From Neptuniibacter sp. (GTDB taxonomy: Bacteria > Pseudomonadota > Gammaproteobacteria > Pseudomonadales > Balneatricaceae): a DNA stretch of 20,166 bases. Shown in pieces: positions 1,200-6,712 of the stretch (the stretch's first letter is position 1; every line of letters begins with the position of its first letter). The position numbers were made by a program, and so were the translations under genes. Where the stretch lies: NCBI GenBank assembly GCA_030149405.1, contig JASBRM010000269.1, positions 1 to 20,166 on the forward strand. Reading direction: 5' to 3'. The notes below the pieces were generated by a model. It was not told where the DNA came from. It saw only the letters and a program-made list of their open reading frames with translations, and made no database searches.

Positions 1200-1208
1200 A
1201 TGTCCGCT
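1200..1208. repeat. left arm of the IS target hairpin
   Basis: ATGTCCGCT here is the exact reverse complement of AGCGGACAT at 2580-2588 on the other side of the IS. It lies outside the predicted element. With the IS removed at the shared GT, the two arms would form a 9-bp stem around a 10-nt loop. Confidence 0.7.
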
Positions 1209-1213
1209 TTGTA

Positions 1214-1226
1214 TATGGACTCCTCC
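1214..1226 (+). repeat. IS sub-terminal inverted repeat, transposase 3' side
   Basis: TATGGACTCCTCC, a perfect 13-bp inverted match to 2555-2567. It lies two bases inside the GT core at 1211-1212. Confidence 0.85.
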
Positions 1227-1261
1227 TGTTGAGCAAGGAAACTCAGTTTCGGATATAAGAC

Positions 1262-1380
1262 GCGTACGTATATTCGGCTTTTTGGTGGAGACGCTATCTC
1301 CCAGCCCACTATGTATGCGCACCCTGATCCCTCTACGTGTCGTTGACCTCATGGGCCACAAAGCGGAACAGGTTTAATCA
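1262..1380 (-). ncRNA. predicted bridge/seeker RNA of the IS
   Basis: The RNA would be read leftward, after the transposase stop. In RNA order it carries: (1) TCCGCTTTGTG (complement of 1357-1367), identical to the left target flank through the core; (2) AACGACAC (complement of 1337-1344), complementary to the right target flank GTGTCGTT; (3) CATACATAGT (complement of 1308-1317), 9 of 10 identical to one side of the joined IS ends, CATACATTGT; (4) ATATAC (complement of 1268-1273), complementary to the other side, GTATAT. Each guide includes the GT core. A CCTG/CAGG stem (1369-1372 with 1323-1326) can close the target loop, and a GGAGA/TCTCC hairpin (1287-1301) separates the donor guides. Guide order is as in the described IS621 bridge RNA when target and donor are read on the + strand. 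The RNA ends are not determinable by eye. Confidence 0.6.
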
Positions 1381-1441
1381 GGGCGGATATCTCTATCTGA
1401 TCCTGGCTTGCTTGCTGAACTCTTACAATTTTGTTTGTTTT

Positions 1442-1462
1442 GCTGCCTGAATTTCAGGCAGC
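1442..1462 (-). other. hairpin overlapping the transposase stop codon
   Basis: A perfect 9-bp inverted repeat with a 3-nt loop (GCTGCCTGA and TCAGGCAGC) contains the transposase TGA at 1454-1456. On the - strand it is followed by an A-rich run, not a U-tract, so it does not look like an intrinsic terminator. It sits just where the guide RNA should begin and may mark its processed 5' end or separate translation from the RNA. Confidence 0.5.
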
Positions 1463-2497
1463 TAATGCTCTGGTAACTTTAGCTCTATCGTATTCATCTC
1501 CTGTTGTAAGCAGTGCCCAAACAGTACGGACGTTTTTGTTCGCTAAGGCGACCGCTGCTTTCCCGTAGCCTGCCCGCTGAATGAGTGCCCAGAGCCATTT
1601 CTGCTTTTGGGTTTGAGGCTCTTTCAAGCGGTGAACATAAGCTCTTGCCCCCTGTATCAGAACAGATCGCAAACGGTGATTAGCAATATGCCGACTGATG
1701 CCTATCAGGTTGGTCTTACCGCCACTACTGTATTGTTTGGGCGTCAGGCCAATATACGCCGAGAACTCACGACCATTCTTAAATGCCTTGCCCGTGCCCA
1801 ATGTGGCAAATAACAGCACAGCACTGATAGGGCCGACACCTTCAATCTCCAGCAAACGGGAACAGGCCTCATTCTGTTTAACCAGCTGTTTGATTTGCTC
1901 ATTCAGATAATCGATATCTTCTTTGAGTTGGAGGTAGCGCTGATACATACGGTGCAAGGTAGGGCGAAACATATGTGGAATACCGTTTTCAGCATCTTCT
2001 AAAATCAGAGGGATATGATGCTGTAACGCCGCCCAGCCTTTGGGAATCACCTGGCCAAATTCCATCAGCAGACCGCGAATATGATTAGAGAGTGCCGTTC
2101 TGTTTTGTACCAGCAGTTCTCGGGATCGTTGCACGGATTGAAGGCCCTGTTGTTCAATACTCTTTAATGGAGCTTCTTTGATGTTGGGCCGCTTTGCTGC
2201 TTCGGCGACGGCTAGGGCATCATTTTTGTCAGTCTTATGCCCTTGTCGAAAAGGAGCAACTGCAATCGCTGGAATGATCCTGACCTGGTGACCATGCTCT
2301 TGGGCATACCGTGCCCAATGGTGGGCGCTCGAGCAGGCTTCAAAAGCGAATAAAGCTGGCTTCTGTTTAATCAGAAACTCAGCAAATTTGGTTCGAGAAA
2401 GTTCTTTGTTCTGCAGCTCTTTTCCTGAAGGTGAAACAACGGCAACCTGAATCACTGTCTTTGCCAGATCTACACCGATAGTATTTACTGTAGCCAT
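1454..2497 (-). CDS. IS110-family (IS1111-like) transposase
   Basis: A 347-residue RNA-guided DNA recombinase. The N-terminal RuvC-like domain carries the DEDD set: Asp10 in GVDLAK, Glu53 in FEACSS, Asp90 and Asp93 in KTDKND. The C-terminal transposase_20 (IS116/IS110/IS902) domain starts near residue 213 (LEIEGVGPISA), with a Ser-Ser-Gly-Gly-Lys at 257-261 where family members carry the nucleophilic serine. A coiled, charged linker lies at about 180-210. Length is normal for the family and no frameshift is seen. The ATG at 2497 has a good ribosome site (AGAGGA, 7-8 bases upstream). The family moves through a circular intermediate whose joined ends create a promoter; such a junction promoter can be assembled here. 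Confidence 0.95.
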   Translation of the reverse strand: MATVNTIGVDLAKTVIQVAVVSPSGKELQNKELSRTKFAEFLIKQKPALFAFEACSSAHHWARYAQEHGHQVRIIPAIAVAPFRQGHKTDKNDALAVAEAAKRPNIKEAPLKSIEQQGLQSVQRSRELLVQNRTALSNHIRGLLMEFGQVIPKGWAALQHHIPLILEDAENGIPHMFRPTLHRMYQRYLQLKEDIDYLNEQIKQLVKQNEACSRLLEIEGVGPISAVLLFATLGTGKAFKNGREFSAYIGLTPKQYSSGGKTNLIGISRHIANHRLRSVLIQGARAYVHRLKEPQTQKQKWLWALIQRAGYGKAAVALANKNVRTVWALLTTGDEYDRAKVTRALAA

Positions 2498-2554
2498 GTG
2501 TGGATTCCTCTTTTAGCGTTTTGGTCGACACTAAGCCTAGCGTCTCGCTGGGAG

Positions 2555-2567
2555 GGAGGAGTCCATA
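2555..2567 (-). repeat. IS sub-terminal inverted repeat, transposase 5' side
   Basis: GGAGGAGTCCATA, the exact reverse complement of 1214-1226. It lies four bases inside the GT core at 2572-2573, giving the asymmetric spacing typical of IS1111 relatives. Confidence 0.85.
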
Positions 2568-2579
2568 CATTGTGTCGTT

Positions 2580-2588
2580 AGCGGACAT
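2580..2588. repeat. right arm of the IS target hairpin
   Basis: AGCGGACAT pairs with ATGTCCGCT at 1200-1208 across the IS. The stretch from here to the tniQ stop at 2752 has no gene and no clear terminator that I can see. Confidence 0.7.
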
Positions 2589-2751: not shown

Positions 2752-3762
2752 TCAGAGCTGAGATTGCCCCAAATTGAGAGATTCCATTGCGCGTACCTGT
2801 ATTTCTATCTCATTTCGTAGGTAGTTGTGTAGTTTTTGAGGGGCATCTGGTCTTAACTTCAAATAATTCTCTGGAGTTTTATACACTGCGCTGAGAAGTG
2901 CTAAGCGGCTATATACACTACTACAGTGAATCTTACTTACGTCGAATGGTGTGGAATCATTTGAGTATGGAATGTTGTTGAGCCAAAGGCAGCTTTGAAA
3001 AATATGTTCAAAATCTTCATTAGTTAAACGAAGAGTAACAGCACCATCAGGGAAGGACGATATTGTATTACCAAGGACACTCAGAATAGTGGCTGTTAGG
3101 CTCTGTAGCTCAGAATCAAAATCGATCCATGGGAGATTTCCATCATAGGCAGCTTTCACCCAAAGAGGGATGTAACGCTCAAATTCAAATGTTGGTTCTT
3201 TGCAATAGGATGACAGATCGATTTGGTCTGAGAACTTTTCAGTAGGTAAGACCAGATTTCCATATGTTTCGAGCTCGCTATTATCTCGCACTATGCCGGT
3301 TGGTATATGATGTATAGGGCAGGTATTTACAAAGGACAAGTTAATGCTTCTATGCGGATACCCATAACCAATTGTGTTAATCTCGTTTTCTAGGCATTGT
3401 GGGCAATAATGATTACCCCTTACATAACGACGGTATGATAACTGCCTCATTAACCATCCGATCCCAAAACCGTCGAAATAACGTTGCCACATCGCATATT
3501 CTTTCCGTGAAGAGAATGGCAACATAAATGCAAAGGAACTAAATTGTGAAAATAGTTCTTTAAAAGTTGAAAAGCTCTGCCCTAAAGGAGAATGCAACAT
3601 ATTCTCAAAATAGTAGAAGTAATCGCCAGAGAGCTTAGGATTCCCCTGAAAAATCTCTTCCGTTGCCAGATCCCATTTGTTGCGAGCGTTAAAAAGATGA
3701 CTTGCAGCGATGTAGCTTTCTAGCGTTTGGTCGGGTTGTATTGCCGGTATTAAATTGATCAT
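2752..3762 (-). CDS. tniQ: short TniQ-family transposition targeting protein
   Basis: A 336-residue TniQ-family protein. The N-terminal part has the family's aromatic-rich TniQ fold (about 1-115, with LESYIAASHLFN near the start). A zinc site follows: Cys120-x2-Cys123 (HYCPQC) and Cys148-x2-His151 (TCPIHH). It lacks the long C-terminal DNA-binding region of its neighbour and is close to the size of TniQ in CRISPR-associated transposons. TniQ proteins connect target recognition to the TnsC ATPase in Tn7-like and Tn5053-like transposition. It lies 102 bases downstream of the tnsD-like gene on the same strand. No strong ribosome site is visible before the ATG. It could be a partner of TnsD or a second targeting factor. 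Confidence 0.75.
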   Translation of the reverse strand: MINLIPAIQPDQTLESYIAASHLFNARNKWDLATEEIFQGNPKLSGDYFYYFENMLHSPLGQSFSTFKELFSQFSSFAFMLPFSSRKEYAMWQRYFDGFGIGWLMRQLSYRRYVRGNHYCPQCLENEINTIGYGYPHRSINLSFVNTCPIHHIPTGIVRDNSELETYGNLVLPTEKFSDQIDLSSYCKEPTFEFERYIPLWVKAAYDGNLPWIDFDSELQSLTATILSVLGNTISSFPDGAVTLRLTNEDFEHIFQSCLWLNNIPYSNDSTPFDVSKIHCSSVYSRLALLSAVYKTPENYLKLRPDAPQKLHNYLRNEIEIQVRAMESLNLGQSQL

Positions 3763-3864
3763 TTGAGTTGGAACTGAATGCAGATTATAAGAGGTATATT
3801 TCAGCAGAAAACAACGGGTAATACATACTTTTTCTCTTCACAAGAAGCCGTACTTTAAGAGGCG

Positions 3865-5397
3865 TTATCTATGAAGATAGGGCTTCCAGAGGCTAGGCAG
3901 ATTGTCTTGAAGCCAGTCTTTATCGTGGCGGTATAACCATTGATAGCCGTTGCCAGGCTTTTTTCGCAGAGCCTTTACAGGTAGACCAGGATTATCTGCC
4001 ACAGTTTTAAGGAATTTTTTACGGTACTCTTTACGTTGTATTTCAAAGCGCGCGGTTTTCCATTTATCCAACAAAGTCGCGTCTGCGGCCAATAATCGAT
4101 TTAGAGATACAAGTGATATTCCTGTCGAACTGACTATATCCTTCTTCATAAGACCTTTGAGCACTTTGGCCTTCACCTTTTTTAATAGATCAGGTTTTAA
4201 CGTTTTCGCCCTTGATTTGAAGTCTATGTCATTTGCCCGAGCCCATTGAGTACCAGTCGTTGTGCAAATTCCCACTTCTCGAGATGCATCTGATATTGTC
4301 AGATTTTTTTCTTTAATAAGCTGAATGAATTGCTCAAGTATAGGGCTAACGTCAGGTGAAATAGACTCTATTTTTGGCTCAGTTTTTGGTACATGTGAGA
4401 GCTGTAAATGTGTGTATTTTTCCACAAACACTGACCAAGACTCGAAGAGCAAGTCAATAATAAGCAAGTGCTTGAAGGGGTGTGCAGGTTTAGAGTGTTC
4501 TCTTGTGATGGCTGTTACGAATCCCCCCGTGGAGGCATCTAAGGATAAAAATAGGCGATCAAACGGAGAGATGTTTCGTAGAGAGTTAAACCTCTCATTA
4601 ACCAGAGTGTGGAGTTTCGTAACCCTCAAATTCCCTCCATTAGTTAATAAGTTGGCTTTATCCAGTTCAAGTCTATAAATTCTTGATAAAGTGTCAGTAA
4701 GATAAGAGCCTGGTTTTGACTGTGCAGCAGCCGATGAATGATCGGCTAATCTCTTAAGAATTTGTATTTGTTCTTTCGTATATTCGATTGTATCCATAGG
4801 GAAATCAGGGTCGCCGGGAGTTAACCATCGACGAAGGTGGACCGGAGTACTTTGAGGTTTCACGACTTGTAGAGGCTGCATATGCTTATTGCAGATAAAT
4901 GATGATGGGTACTGATGTGATATCCTCCAATAAGCCCCCCCTTTCTCTTTAATATCTTCTTTCATGCAGGCATCACAAAATTTCAGCGGATGACTACCGC
5001 CGATTCGGCTTGCAGGTATTCCCAGTTTGTATTTAAGTTGAGGGTAACTACCTACGCACACACGATTAAGAATGTCTTCTGATAAGCTACTGCTTGTGAA
5101 CGAGAGATAATATCCAAGTAGGGATCGATTAAGTGCGATTTCTCTTGTGGTCCCAAGGGCGTTTTGTGTTGTTTGATTGAGGTGCTTAAGGTGGGCAGGA
5201 AAATCATGTAATAAAGCAGCGGACGAATGTCCAAAAAGTTGTTTGCTTGTTAACCGGACATCAGAGTTTGTATTCCATAGATGAACACGACTTGCCCAAC
5301 TGTAAAGAGTCTCGTCAGCATATGGTGCTGGGATATTTGGTAGAACGAACGGAAGCTCATCAGGCCTCATATTTTTAGCCCGTATTAGTTTTCTCAA
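3865..5397 (-). CDS. tnsD: TnsD-like target-site selection protein (TniQ family)
   Basis: 510 residues from a TTG at 5397, or 501 from the ATG at 5370; neither has a convincing ribosome site, so the start is open. The N-terminal TniQ domain (about 15-170) includes LYSWASRVHLWN and a zinc site, Cys141-x2-Cys144 and Cys169-x2-His172. The C-terminal half (about 340-510) resembles the TnsD DNA-binding region, with repeated helix-turn-helix-like segments and the ending motif QWLYRHDKDWL. TnsD binds a fixed chromosomal attachment gene and directs insertion just beyond it. The gene lies between the presumed transposon end and tniQ, reading away from folE2. Base composition is lower in G+C than the backbone genes. 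Confidence 0.85.
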   Translation of the reverse strand: MRKLIRAKNMRPDELPFVLPNIPAPYADETLYSWASRVHLWNTNSDVRLTSKQLFGHSSAALLHDFPAHLKHLNQTTQNALGTTREIALNRSLLGYYLSFTSSSLSEDILNRVCVGSYPQLKYKLGIPASRIGGSHPLKFCDACMKEDIKEKGGAYWRISHQYPSSFICNKHMQPLQVVKPQSTPVHLRRWLTPGDPDFPMDTIEYTKEQIQILKRLADHSSAAAQSKPGSYLTDTLSRIYRLELDKANLLTNGGNLRVTKLHTLVNERFNSLRNISPFDRLFLSLDASTGGFVTAITREHSKPAHPFKHLLIIDLLFESWSVFVEKYTHLQLSHVPKTEPKIESISPDVSPILEQFIQLIKEKNLTISDASREVGICTTTGTQWARANDIDFKSRAKTLKPDLLKKVKAKVLKGLMKKDIVSSTGISLVSLNRLLAADATLLDKWKTARFEIQRKEYRKKFLKTVADNPGLPVKALRKKPGNGYQWLYRHDKDWLQDNLPSLWKPYLHR

Positions 5398-5588: not shown

Positions 5589-5732
5589 TACGACTTAATT
5601 GTATAAATGCTGATAACTGTTTAAGTGAATGAGCTTAATTCTACGACTTTTTCATTTCGGTATAAGGAAACCCGGGCTTGTTAAGCCCAGTTTATTCAGT
5701 ACGTTAAAGTACGACTTTTTTGTAACGGAATA
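5589..5732. mobile_element. candidate right end of a Tn7-like transposon
   Basis: Three copies of TACGACTT occur in the same orientation at 5589-5596, 5642-5649 and 5710-5717. Read inward (- strand) the first and third are ACAATTAAGTCGTA and ACAAAAAAGTCGTA. They resemble TnsB-binding sites of Tn7R as I recall them (ACAATAAAGTCTTA). The outer two repeats share a longer pattern extending to TTAT-x-CCG. By analogy with Tn7, where nine bases precede the first site, the tip would fall near 5732, directly against the folE2 terminator. The trinucleotide there reads TAT inward instead of the usual TGT, so the tip is either atypical, mutated, or a few bases away. An inverted repeat (GGGCTT-GTT-AAGCCC, 5674-5688) lies between the outer sites. 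Confidence 0.55.
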
Positions 5733-5763
5733 AAAAAAGGCTGCCAACCGGCAGCCTTTTTTA
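5732..5763 (-). terminator. folE2 terminator
   Basis: GGCTGCC (5739-5745) pairs with GGCAGCC (5750-5756) around a 4-nt loop, flanked by an A-run and a T-run, so it can act in both directions. It follows the folE2 stop by about 20 bases and separates the gene from the transposon end. Confidence 0.85.
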
Positions 5764-5776
5764 TTTGGATCACAAA

Positions 5777-6712
5777 TTAGCTGTAATCAGCTGGACTGTA
5801 TCCACCTTCAATACCTTTAGAGGCCAATGCTACGGCATCGTGGGCATGCAGGCTCTCGAAGTGTTCTACCTTCAGCCAGAAGTCTGTGTATTGTTCTTGT
5901 GACTGCAGTGCCTGTTTAACGCGGCGGGCAGCATCTTCACAGAACATCAGGTTATGACCATTCAGGCGAGCAAATTCTTGTTCGTCAGCACGTTTAACCG
6001 CAGTCTGAACAGGAGTCTTAAGTGCATTTTCTACCAGATCAATCAGATCGGTCAGCGGGAATGCACCCATATTTTTATCCAGCTTCACCCAAGCAGTGGC
6101 CTGACTACGCTGACTGTGAGGTGTTGCAAAAGAGCCTTTCTCTGATTTAAGCCAGTTTTCTACGGCTTCAACACTCAGGCCTTCTTTGCCAGCAAAGTCG
6201 TCAGTAAATGCTTGGGCAAGGAGCTGACGTGATAGTGCTGCTGAGCATGGGCAGGTTGAAGAATACGGAACGCGAGTTGCCAGTTCTAGAATAACATCAC
6301 CATCTTTCAGTGTTGCGCGTAGAGTTGTGGAATAGCTTTTCCAGCCACTGTTATCACTTTTCAGGGCATCACGTTTGATCAGGAAATCAAAGTCAAAATT
6401 CAGGAAAACCTGAGTCGAGATGTCATGATGGCTATCCAGCAAGTGGGATAGGAAATCAGTCAGAGCAGGAACATTCAGCGTCTGGTTTTCAAAGAAATTG
6501 CTTAATGCCAAGTAGAGGCGAGACATGTGAATGCCTTTAACCTTAGGGTTAACCAGATTCACATAGGTATTCACCCGGGCTTCAATAGCGCGGACACCCA
6601 GTGAATTGTCTTCAAATGAGAGCGGTACGGTAATTCCGTTCATGCCTACCCAGTCTAGAGAACCGTGTATCTCAGGGTTTTGATGACTGGTGACGTCAGG
6701 CAAAGTGGTCAT
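5777..6712 (-). CDS. folE2: GTP cyclohydrolase FolE2 (type IB)
   Basis: 311 residues. It catalyses GTP to 7,8-dihydroneopterin triphosphate, the first step of folate and queuosine-precursor synthesis, in the cytosol. FolE2 is the metal-flexible form that replaces zinc-dependent FolE. Visible family signatures are NPKVKGIHMSRLY (about 55-67), the active-site region PYSSTCPCS with Cys154 and Cys156, a PHSQRS histidine region near 195-200, and a FCEDAARR motif near 260. Length is normal. The ATG at 6712 has GGAAG upstream at a reasonable distance. FolE2 is often zinc-repressed by Zur; I do not see a clear Zur palindrome in 6713-7115. The 3' end faces the Tn7-like end, making this the likely attachment gene. 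Confidence 0.95.
   Translation of the reverse strand: MTTLPDVTSHQNPEIHGSLDWVGMNGITVPLSFEDNSLGVRAIEARVNTYVNLVNPKVKGIHMSRLYLALSNFFENQTLNVPALTDFLSHLLDSHHDISTQVFLNFDFDFLIKRDALKSDNSGWKSYSTTLRATLKDGDVILELATRVPYSSTCPCSAALSRQLLAQAFTDDFAGKEGLSVEAVENWLKSEKGSFATPHSQRSQATAWVKLDKNMGAFPLTDLIDLVENALKTPVQTAVKRADEQEFARLNGHNLMFCEDAARRVKQALQSQEQYTDFWLKVEHFESLHAHDAVALASKGIEGGYSPADYS

Follow-up and report, generated by a model that had tools for sequence, protein, structure and literature searches.

A probable bispecific guide RNA with target and donor loops in an IS1111-type insertion sequence, and a base common to its junctions

The window analyzed here, a stretch of 20,166 nucleotides of Neptuniibacter sp. DNA taken at its full length, carries at 1211–2573 a single IS1111-type element. 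Very probably, the segment 3' of its transposase gene specifies a bispecific guide RNA, with a target loop and a donor loop, that directs the recombination of the element. Guide-RNA logic of this kind is already published for IS1111 elements (PMC11187229, PMC11208160). A sequence-only reading of the window had taken the locus for an IS110-family element with a legible bridge or seeker RNA, and this stands, its target guides being correct and its donor guides plausible. The target specificity of an uncharacterized IS1111 element is accordingly readable from raw sequence and can be confirmed with public genomes; the statistics of the junctions further provide a simple, testable statement on a possible difference between the IS1111 and IS621 systems.

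The element, its ends and its transposase

The following features define the element, with right and left given in the orientation of the transposase:

1211–2573, minus strand: IS1111-type insertion sequence, from its subterminal repeats and Pfam, with ends registered against relatives and against uninterrupted targets in the relatives' hosts
1454–2497, minus strand: transposase of 347 aa with an intact open reading frame, from the ORF list and Pfam (DEDD_Tnp_IS110 and Transposase_20)
1214–1226, no strand assigned: subterminal inverted repeat of the right end, from a 13-bp repeat pair
2555–2567, no strand assigned: subterminal inverted repeat of the left end, the other member of the pair
1231–1236, minus strand: TTGCTC, a possible -35 box, 17 bp from TACAAT across the junction in the joined circle

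With GT common to both junctions, the element proper comprises either 1211–2571 or 1213–2573. It combines the hallmarks of the IS1111 group, namely a DEDD transposase in the range of 330–350 aa with a GL-P----S(t)G motif, subterminal repeats in the range of 7–17 bp, and a longer non-coding region 3' of the transposase gene. Its 13-bp repeats match perfectly between the two ends, and the non-coding sequence amounts to 243 nt downstream of the transposase gene (1211–1453) versus 76 nt upstream of the start codon (2498–2573). The SG motif of the transposase reads GLTPKQYSSG and occupies residues 250–259. Across the window protein and 19 homologs this motif is invariant, as are D10, E53, D90 and D93, which we take to be the DEDD residues; Y256 is nearly so.

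A single copy of the element is found in its own assembly, which comprises 397 contigs and in which repeats may have been collapsed. Beyond the 90% cluster to which the transposase belongs (three member sequences), its relatives reach 87% identity among the matches listed, and the best other copy in 390 genomes of the order is 48% identical. A plasmid collection holds 2,066 records with a relative at E ≤ 1e-60, all less than 60% identical, and a scan of viral contigs found no relative. A promoter created at the junction of a circular intermediate is a further mark of the group; the TTGCTC and TACAAT boxes of the joined ends match the consensus at three and five of six positions and are a candidate for it. 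A promoter scan of the integrated element gave a result at chance level, with two found and 2.4 expected.

A structured two-loop RNA downstream of the transposase gene

The RNA and its four guides are placed as follows:

1261–1391, minus strand: core of the bridge RNA or seekRNA, target loop followed by donor loop, from covariance model R1 and compensatory pairs
1359–1367, minus strand: target guide 1, TCCGCTTTG, the same as target bases 1203–1211 of the plus strand, from the family map and held-out copies
1337–1342, minus strand: target guide 2, CGACAC, equal to target bases 2572–2577 read on the minus strand, from the family map and held-out copies
1309–1317, minus strand: donor guide 1, CATACATAG, matching the left IS end and core base at 8 of 9, with partial family support
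1268–1273, minus strand: donor guide 2, ATATAC, identical (6 of 6) to the right IS end plus core, with junction-base agreement

We aligned the corresponding segments of the window and 20 related loci and used them as the training set of the covariance model R1. Its sole match in the window has an E value of 6.8e-33, the window being one of the 21 training rows. Loop 1 of the consensus is enclosed by helices of eight and three pairs and contains an inner hairpin of three pairs, and loop 2 is made up of a three-pair helix, a four-pair helix and a five-pair hairpin. The target guides lie on both sides of the first loop and the donor guides on both sides of the second, in the order along the RNA that had been claimed: target-left, target-right, donor-left, donor-right.

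The 26 consensus pairs are kept in 96.9% of cells over the 21 copies, and 16 of them show compensatory double changes. Cells with such changes number 72 as against 17.7 in shuffles, with none of 500 shuffles as high, and sliding the register lowers the paired cells to 31.7–50.0%. The covariance-model search and folding proposed along with the sequence-only reading thus bear out a structured RNA in the 3' non-coding segment: the model and the compensatory pairing support the two-loop fold, and the single-sequence fold of 1244–1413 has z = -2.00. None of 4,227 Rfam families matches the window at the gathering score. R1 itself finds 70 places in 83 fetched sources and, in whole genomes, matches 30 of 390 from the order and 36 of 369 from the class, the window's own genome being counted in both.

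Target guides match the flanks of this and related copies

The target was reconstructed as the window up to 1210, GT, and the window from 2574 onward. It contains TCCGCTTTGTG, the minus-strand sequence of 1357–1367, and its opposite strand contains AACGACAC, found at 1337–1344. For a chance test we took the RNA segment 1262–1453, masked the right end and made 300 dinucleotide shuffles. The core-spanning 11-base target match was reached in none of these and the 8-base match on the other strand in 6, whereas a 10-base donor match, one mismatch being allowed, appeared in 15 and a 6-base donor match in 60. Hence, on this element by itself, the target guides rise above chance and the donor guides hardly do so. 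An unmasked test with 2,000 shuffles yielded the 11-mer in none, the 8-mer in 44 and both together in none; its donor figures were discarded because the scanned segment included the right end, which matched itself.

For the comparison across relatives, the truncated loci L045 and L061 were excluded from the 70 R1 matches and the 68 full-length ones were examined. Twelve of these lacked a recognizable inverted repeat or had too little sequence and nine failed registration, leaving 47 copies with both ends resolved; L055 and other loci repeating an already included place had been left out of the search of the 83 sources. Each RNA position was compared with each flank position in both senses. The top two distinct diagonals among 5,796 of six bases are the two target guides of the sequence-only reading, so that its proposed check, covariation of 1357–1367 and 1337–1344 with the flanks, comes out positive on 47 copies. 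The best diagonal equates RNA positions 50–55 (window 1342–1337) with the six bases that immediately precede the element (mean z 9.0; per-position agreement 76–96%, expected 31–42%). In the next distinct one, RNA positions 25–33 (window 1367–1359) are the complement of the core base and of the sequence that follows the element (48–63% per position, expected 24–37%). The positions given for the guides were therefore right, but their lengths of 11 and 8 bases were too generous: the outermost two bases of both stretches are without family support, which extends over about nine and six bases. Among the 31 copies outside the window's own group of 16, the guide-2 diagonal is identical and the guide-1 diagonal is one base out of register.

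Matches per copy were counted in the 45 of the 47 that have full flanks, against permutations that ignore the kinship of the IS copies. Guide 2 matches the left flank (in transposase orientation) at five or six of six bases in 38 of these (permuted mean 3.7, maximum 10). For guide 1, a match to the right flank at no fewer than six of eight bases is seen in 20 with the register fixed (permuted mean 2.3, maximum 8); allowing a slip of -2 to +1, which many distant copies need, raises this to 39 (permuted mean 3.9, maximum 13). Guide 2 misses in seven copies and guide 1 in six even with the slip. Among these misses, L040 is a clear one, with a right flank unrelated to its own guide 1, and L038 misses owing to a right end that lacks the four bases TATA. 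At the L038 locus (4255–4290), where TATA is missing before the target, the guides match the flanks, and the junction is the complement of guide 1, TTCCGCAAAGTGG; it is perhaps an immobile copy. Elsewhere, L042 and L054 have clearly different targets and correspondingly different guides.

A held-out set was drawn from a search of the class, which gave 30 loci. The window's own locus and L141, which has the local coordinates and score of L056, were removed, and 15 of the other 28 were kept and 13 dropped. These copies strongly support guide 2, with 79 of 90 bases matched (permuted mean 31.6, none of 5,000 as high), and weakly support guide 1, with 39 of 120 (permuted mean 28.8, 51 of 5,000 as high). 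Outer flanks of 200 bp were available for 88 of the 94 possible sides. At E ≤ 1e-3 they contained one similar pair, which flanks one and the same locus; hence, the copies are separate insertions.

The target palindrome and its surroundings

The element interrupts a palindrome, the two parts of which are:

1200–1212, plus strand: left half of the interrupted palindromic target plus core, with the arm ATGTCCGCT at 1200–1208, from a repeat pair
2572–2588, plus strand: core together with the right half of this target, with the arm AGCGGACAT at 2580–2588, from the same repeat pair

We predict the target of this element to be TCCGCTTTGTGTCG (plus strand), the center of a palindrome between convergent genes that end at 1175 (plus strand) and 2752 (minus strand), and the intact empty site of the insertion to read ATGTCCGCTTTGTGTCGTTAGCGGACAT. 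Some hosts of close relatives contain uninterrupted palindromes of the type that those relatives use, such as TCCGCTTCCGACCCAAAGCGGA, indicating that GACCC and AAAGCGG were contiguous before insertion. With up to three mismatches, the palindrome pattern has 40 matches in 20 genomes versus 13 for a reversed control. Among these genomes, the hosts of L062 (G403) and L049 (G400) have dispersed palindromes like TCYGCT..CGACCCAAAGCGGA, with 12 and 8 matches and none for the reversed control, the kind of site used by this IS group.

The window's own genome holds no second copy of the palindrome at up to three mismatches, and a 14-base part of it has two one-mismatch matches there versus three for the control. 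The empty site of the window insertion was found in none of the 59 other genomes among the 60 searched. No plasmid record with the same surroundings was found: nine matched only at 445–637, and a further plasmid search gave none.

Two TniQ-type genes on the minus strand at 2752–5397 code for a TniQ protein of 336 aa and a TnsD-like protein of 510 aa (Pfam), and a MerC-like gene (16–426) and a zf_CopZ gene (738–1175) are found beside them. This TniQ-type region may belong to an end of a Tn7-like element that the contig boundary truncates; the five proteins scanned with Pfam include no TnsA, TnsB or TnsC. Between the TnsD-like gene and a gene at 5777–6712, which presumably resembles folE2, lie three TACGACTT motifs (5589–5738), two of which belong to a 29-nt repeat (5642 and 5710), a possible Tn7-like end with its attachment site. 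The short gene at 426–638 adjoins the MerC gene and resembles the GDCCVxC-domain (seleno)proteins of plasmids; eight of the nine plasmid records matching there are annotated as GDCCVxC-domain proteins and one is without annotation.

The core base at the junctions

The GT/AC core is contained in all four guides of this element, as had been claimed, and both of its bases agree between the junctions of the window. The claim does not extend to the family, in which mainly one base is common. Over the 47 copies, base 1 of the two junctions is equal in 7 (permuted mean 8.4), base 2 in 41 (permuted mean 18.2, none of 20,000 as high) and base 3 in 23 (mean 17.7, 711 of 20,000 as high). The 15 held-out copies give equality in 12 for base 2 (8 of 20,000 as high), in 3 for base 1 and in 9 for base 3 (mean 6.9; 1,507 of 20,000). 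These junction statistics indicate that, for the family, the GT core seen in the window amounts to one common base, with a neighbor that coincidentally agrees in this element; a core dinucleotide common to target and donor in all four guides, as in the IS621 type, is not seen at the family level.

Base 1 of the right junction is A in 45 of the 47 copies. At the left junction it varies (C in 22, T in 12, A in 8 and G in 5) and tracks guide 2 (89%). RNA position 55, in guide 2, equals the junction base in 40 of the 41 copies with agreeing junctions, and position 34 of guide 1, at the second core base, does not track the core (z -1.2, 47 copies). An exchange stagger of at most one base was considered from the fixed A on the right and the guide-following base on the left; it was dropped, as mismatch repair would give the same pattern. 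For IS621, the part of PMC11208158 used here states that mismatches may undergo repair once the bottom strands have been exchanged.

The chances seem to us evenly divided as to whether IS1111-type bridge RNAs use a one-base core, a single base N common to target and donor. Under such a reading, N could be any of the four bases and would be written in guide 2 and in donor guide 2, and the neighboring base would be the target's on the left and the element's nearly fixed A on the right. Against a strict one-base core stand the equality of base 3, slightly above chance, and a signal at guide 2 position 56, which matches the right flank's first base in 70% versus 44% expected (z 4.3); guide 2 may extend one base beyond the core. 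Donor position 125, the counterpart of position 56, gives no signal (z 0.5). If a one-base core is true, IS1111 systems would be freer in target choice than the IS621 type with its two-base core, and a different exchange geometry may be indicated. The titles and abstract openings among the matches listed make no mention of a one-base core in IS1111.

Donor guides

Both donor strings occur where the sequence-only reading had placed them, matching the joined IS ends at 9 of 10 bases (CATACATAGT, 1308–1317) and at 6 of 6, although they lie close to chance level when this element is taken by itself. Among relatives, donor guide 2 is well supported and donor guide 1 partly so. Donor guide 2 and the right end are nearly invariant among the copies, with the last base of the guide varying. 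This base, RNA position 124, is the same as the junction base in all 41 copies with agreeing junctions and as the right-end base in 13 of the 15 held-out copies. In L050, a right end of CACATAC is paired with a guide of ACATAC.

For donor guide 1, complementarity to the core base is seen in 22 of the 41 copies (expected 11.0, z 4.9); the same core-base scan puts unrelated position 1 at z 4.8 and guide 1 at z 4.3. Only 3 of the 15 held-out copies show this complementarity. The mismatch that this guide has in the window is common to several close relatives, and the guide changes in part with variants of the left end.

A model of recombination and its alternatives

We propose that a bispecific guide RNA would be made from the non-coding segment downstream of the IS1111-group transposase gene. 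Its first loop would pair with both target strands, over about nine and six bases that overlap at the core, and its second with the joined IS ends, again on both strands. Recombination between the target and the excised circle, at the common core base, would then be carried out by the transposase with its RuvC-like DEDD domain and SG serine. This copy is presumably transcribed and its RNA bound by the transposase; a role for donor guide 1, the formation of a circle and the activity of the element are likewise presumed.

The matches might instead be coincidental, or a by-product of a palindromic target and inverted ends, with the 3' segment acting as a terminator or spacer. The target and the IS ends are palindromic, which does raise chance matching, and the donor matches taken alone lie near it (15 and 60 of 300 shuffles), but the target matches go beyond the shuffles (0 and 6 of 300), the guides co-vary with the flanks across independent insertions and the compensatory RNA structure is strong, which makes this explanation highly improbable. 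We give even less credence to the notion that the flank matches were inherited, by related elements sitting at orthologous sites, and not selected by the guides. Many close copies do have GACCC to the left and AAAGCGG to the right in common, yet the one similar pair among the 88 outer 200-bp flanks comes from both sides of a single locus.

A narrower role as a seekRNA that pairs with the target only, with the transposase reading the IS ends through the subterminal repeats and the donor-like stretches conserved for other reasons, seems unlikely to us, though it has several observations in its favor. Donor guide 1 is mismatched here and in several close relatives and, among the 15 held-out copies, complements the core base in just 3, the subterminal repeats of IS1111 elements are long, and target matches alone are described in the portion of the seekRNA paper considered here (PMC11187229). 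On the other hand, donor guide 2 tracks the right end (41 of 41 agreeing junctions and 13 of 15 held-out copies), with the variant end and guide of L050 going together. Donor guide 1, for its part, is complementary to the core base in 22 of 41 copies versus an expected 11.0, to be read beside the background position at z 4.8, and partly changes with left-end variants. We accordingly favor the RNA with both a target and a donor loop.

Relationship to known guide-RNA systems

SeekRNAs have been reported for four IS1111 elements, ISEc11, ISPa11, ISKpn4 and ISPst6 (PMC11187229). As far as the portion of that paper considered here goes, the element of the window resembles them in an RNA from the non-coding region 3' of the transposase gene, a top-strand complementary match placed 5' of the bottom-strand one, subterminal inverted repeats, a GL-P----SG motif, and relatives with other targets that carry other guides. 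It is unlike the four in its target, a TCCGCT..AGCGGA palindrome. The donor loop and the agreement of junction bases are treated here, whereas the same portion of PMC11187229 describes target matches. A short dispersed palindrome as the target in several hosts of related copies recalls the REP-targeting ISPa11 and IS621; unlike in those cases, a search of the genome that carries the window found no second palindrome of this kind.

Bridge RNAs, in the sections of PMC11208160 drawn on here, have a target loop followed by a donor loop, with covariation given for IS621-like elements, and one is predicted in 93.0% of IS1111 elements. Many of the IS1111 RNAs of that paper carry the donor-binding bases in a multi-loop, unlike the consensus here, which has a simple internal loop. 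Structures of IS621 are given in PMC11208158, and its core is a CT dinucleotide, in which T is almost invariant and C less conserved (same source, in the part considered). A sequence search of solved structures gave seven matches at E ≤ 1, among which ISCro4 and IS621 are the two chains of this recombinase type, and hence a structure from the IS1111 group would be informative. The similarity of the window transposase to that of IS621 is weak (E 3.8e-10 over residues 188–283).

With the IS621 bridge RNA, as presented in the parts of PMC11208160 and PMC11208158 used here, the RNA of the window shares a target and then a donor internal loop, two guides in each, the first donor guide being partly supported, and their overlap at the core. 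It is unlike the IS621 system in that the RNA lies on the 3' side of the transposase gene, that the subterminal repeats are long and that, in place of a CT dinucleotide core, mainly one core base is common to the target and donor junctions.
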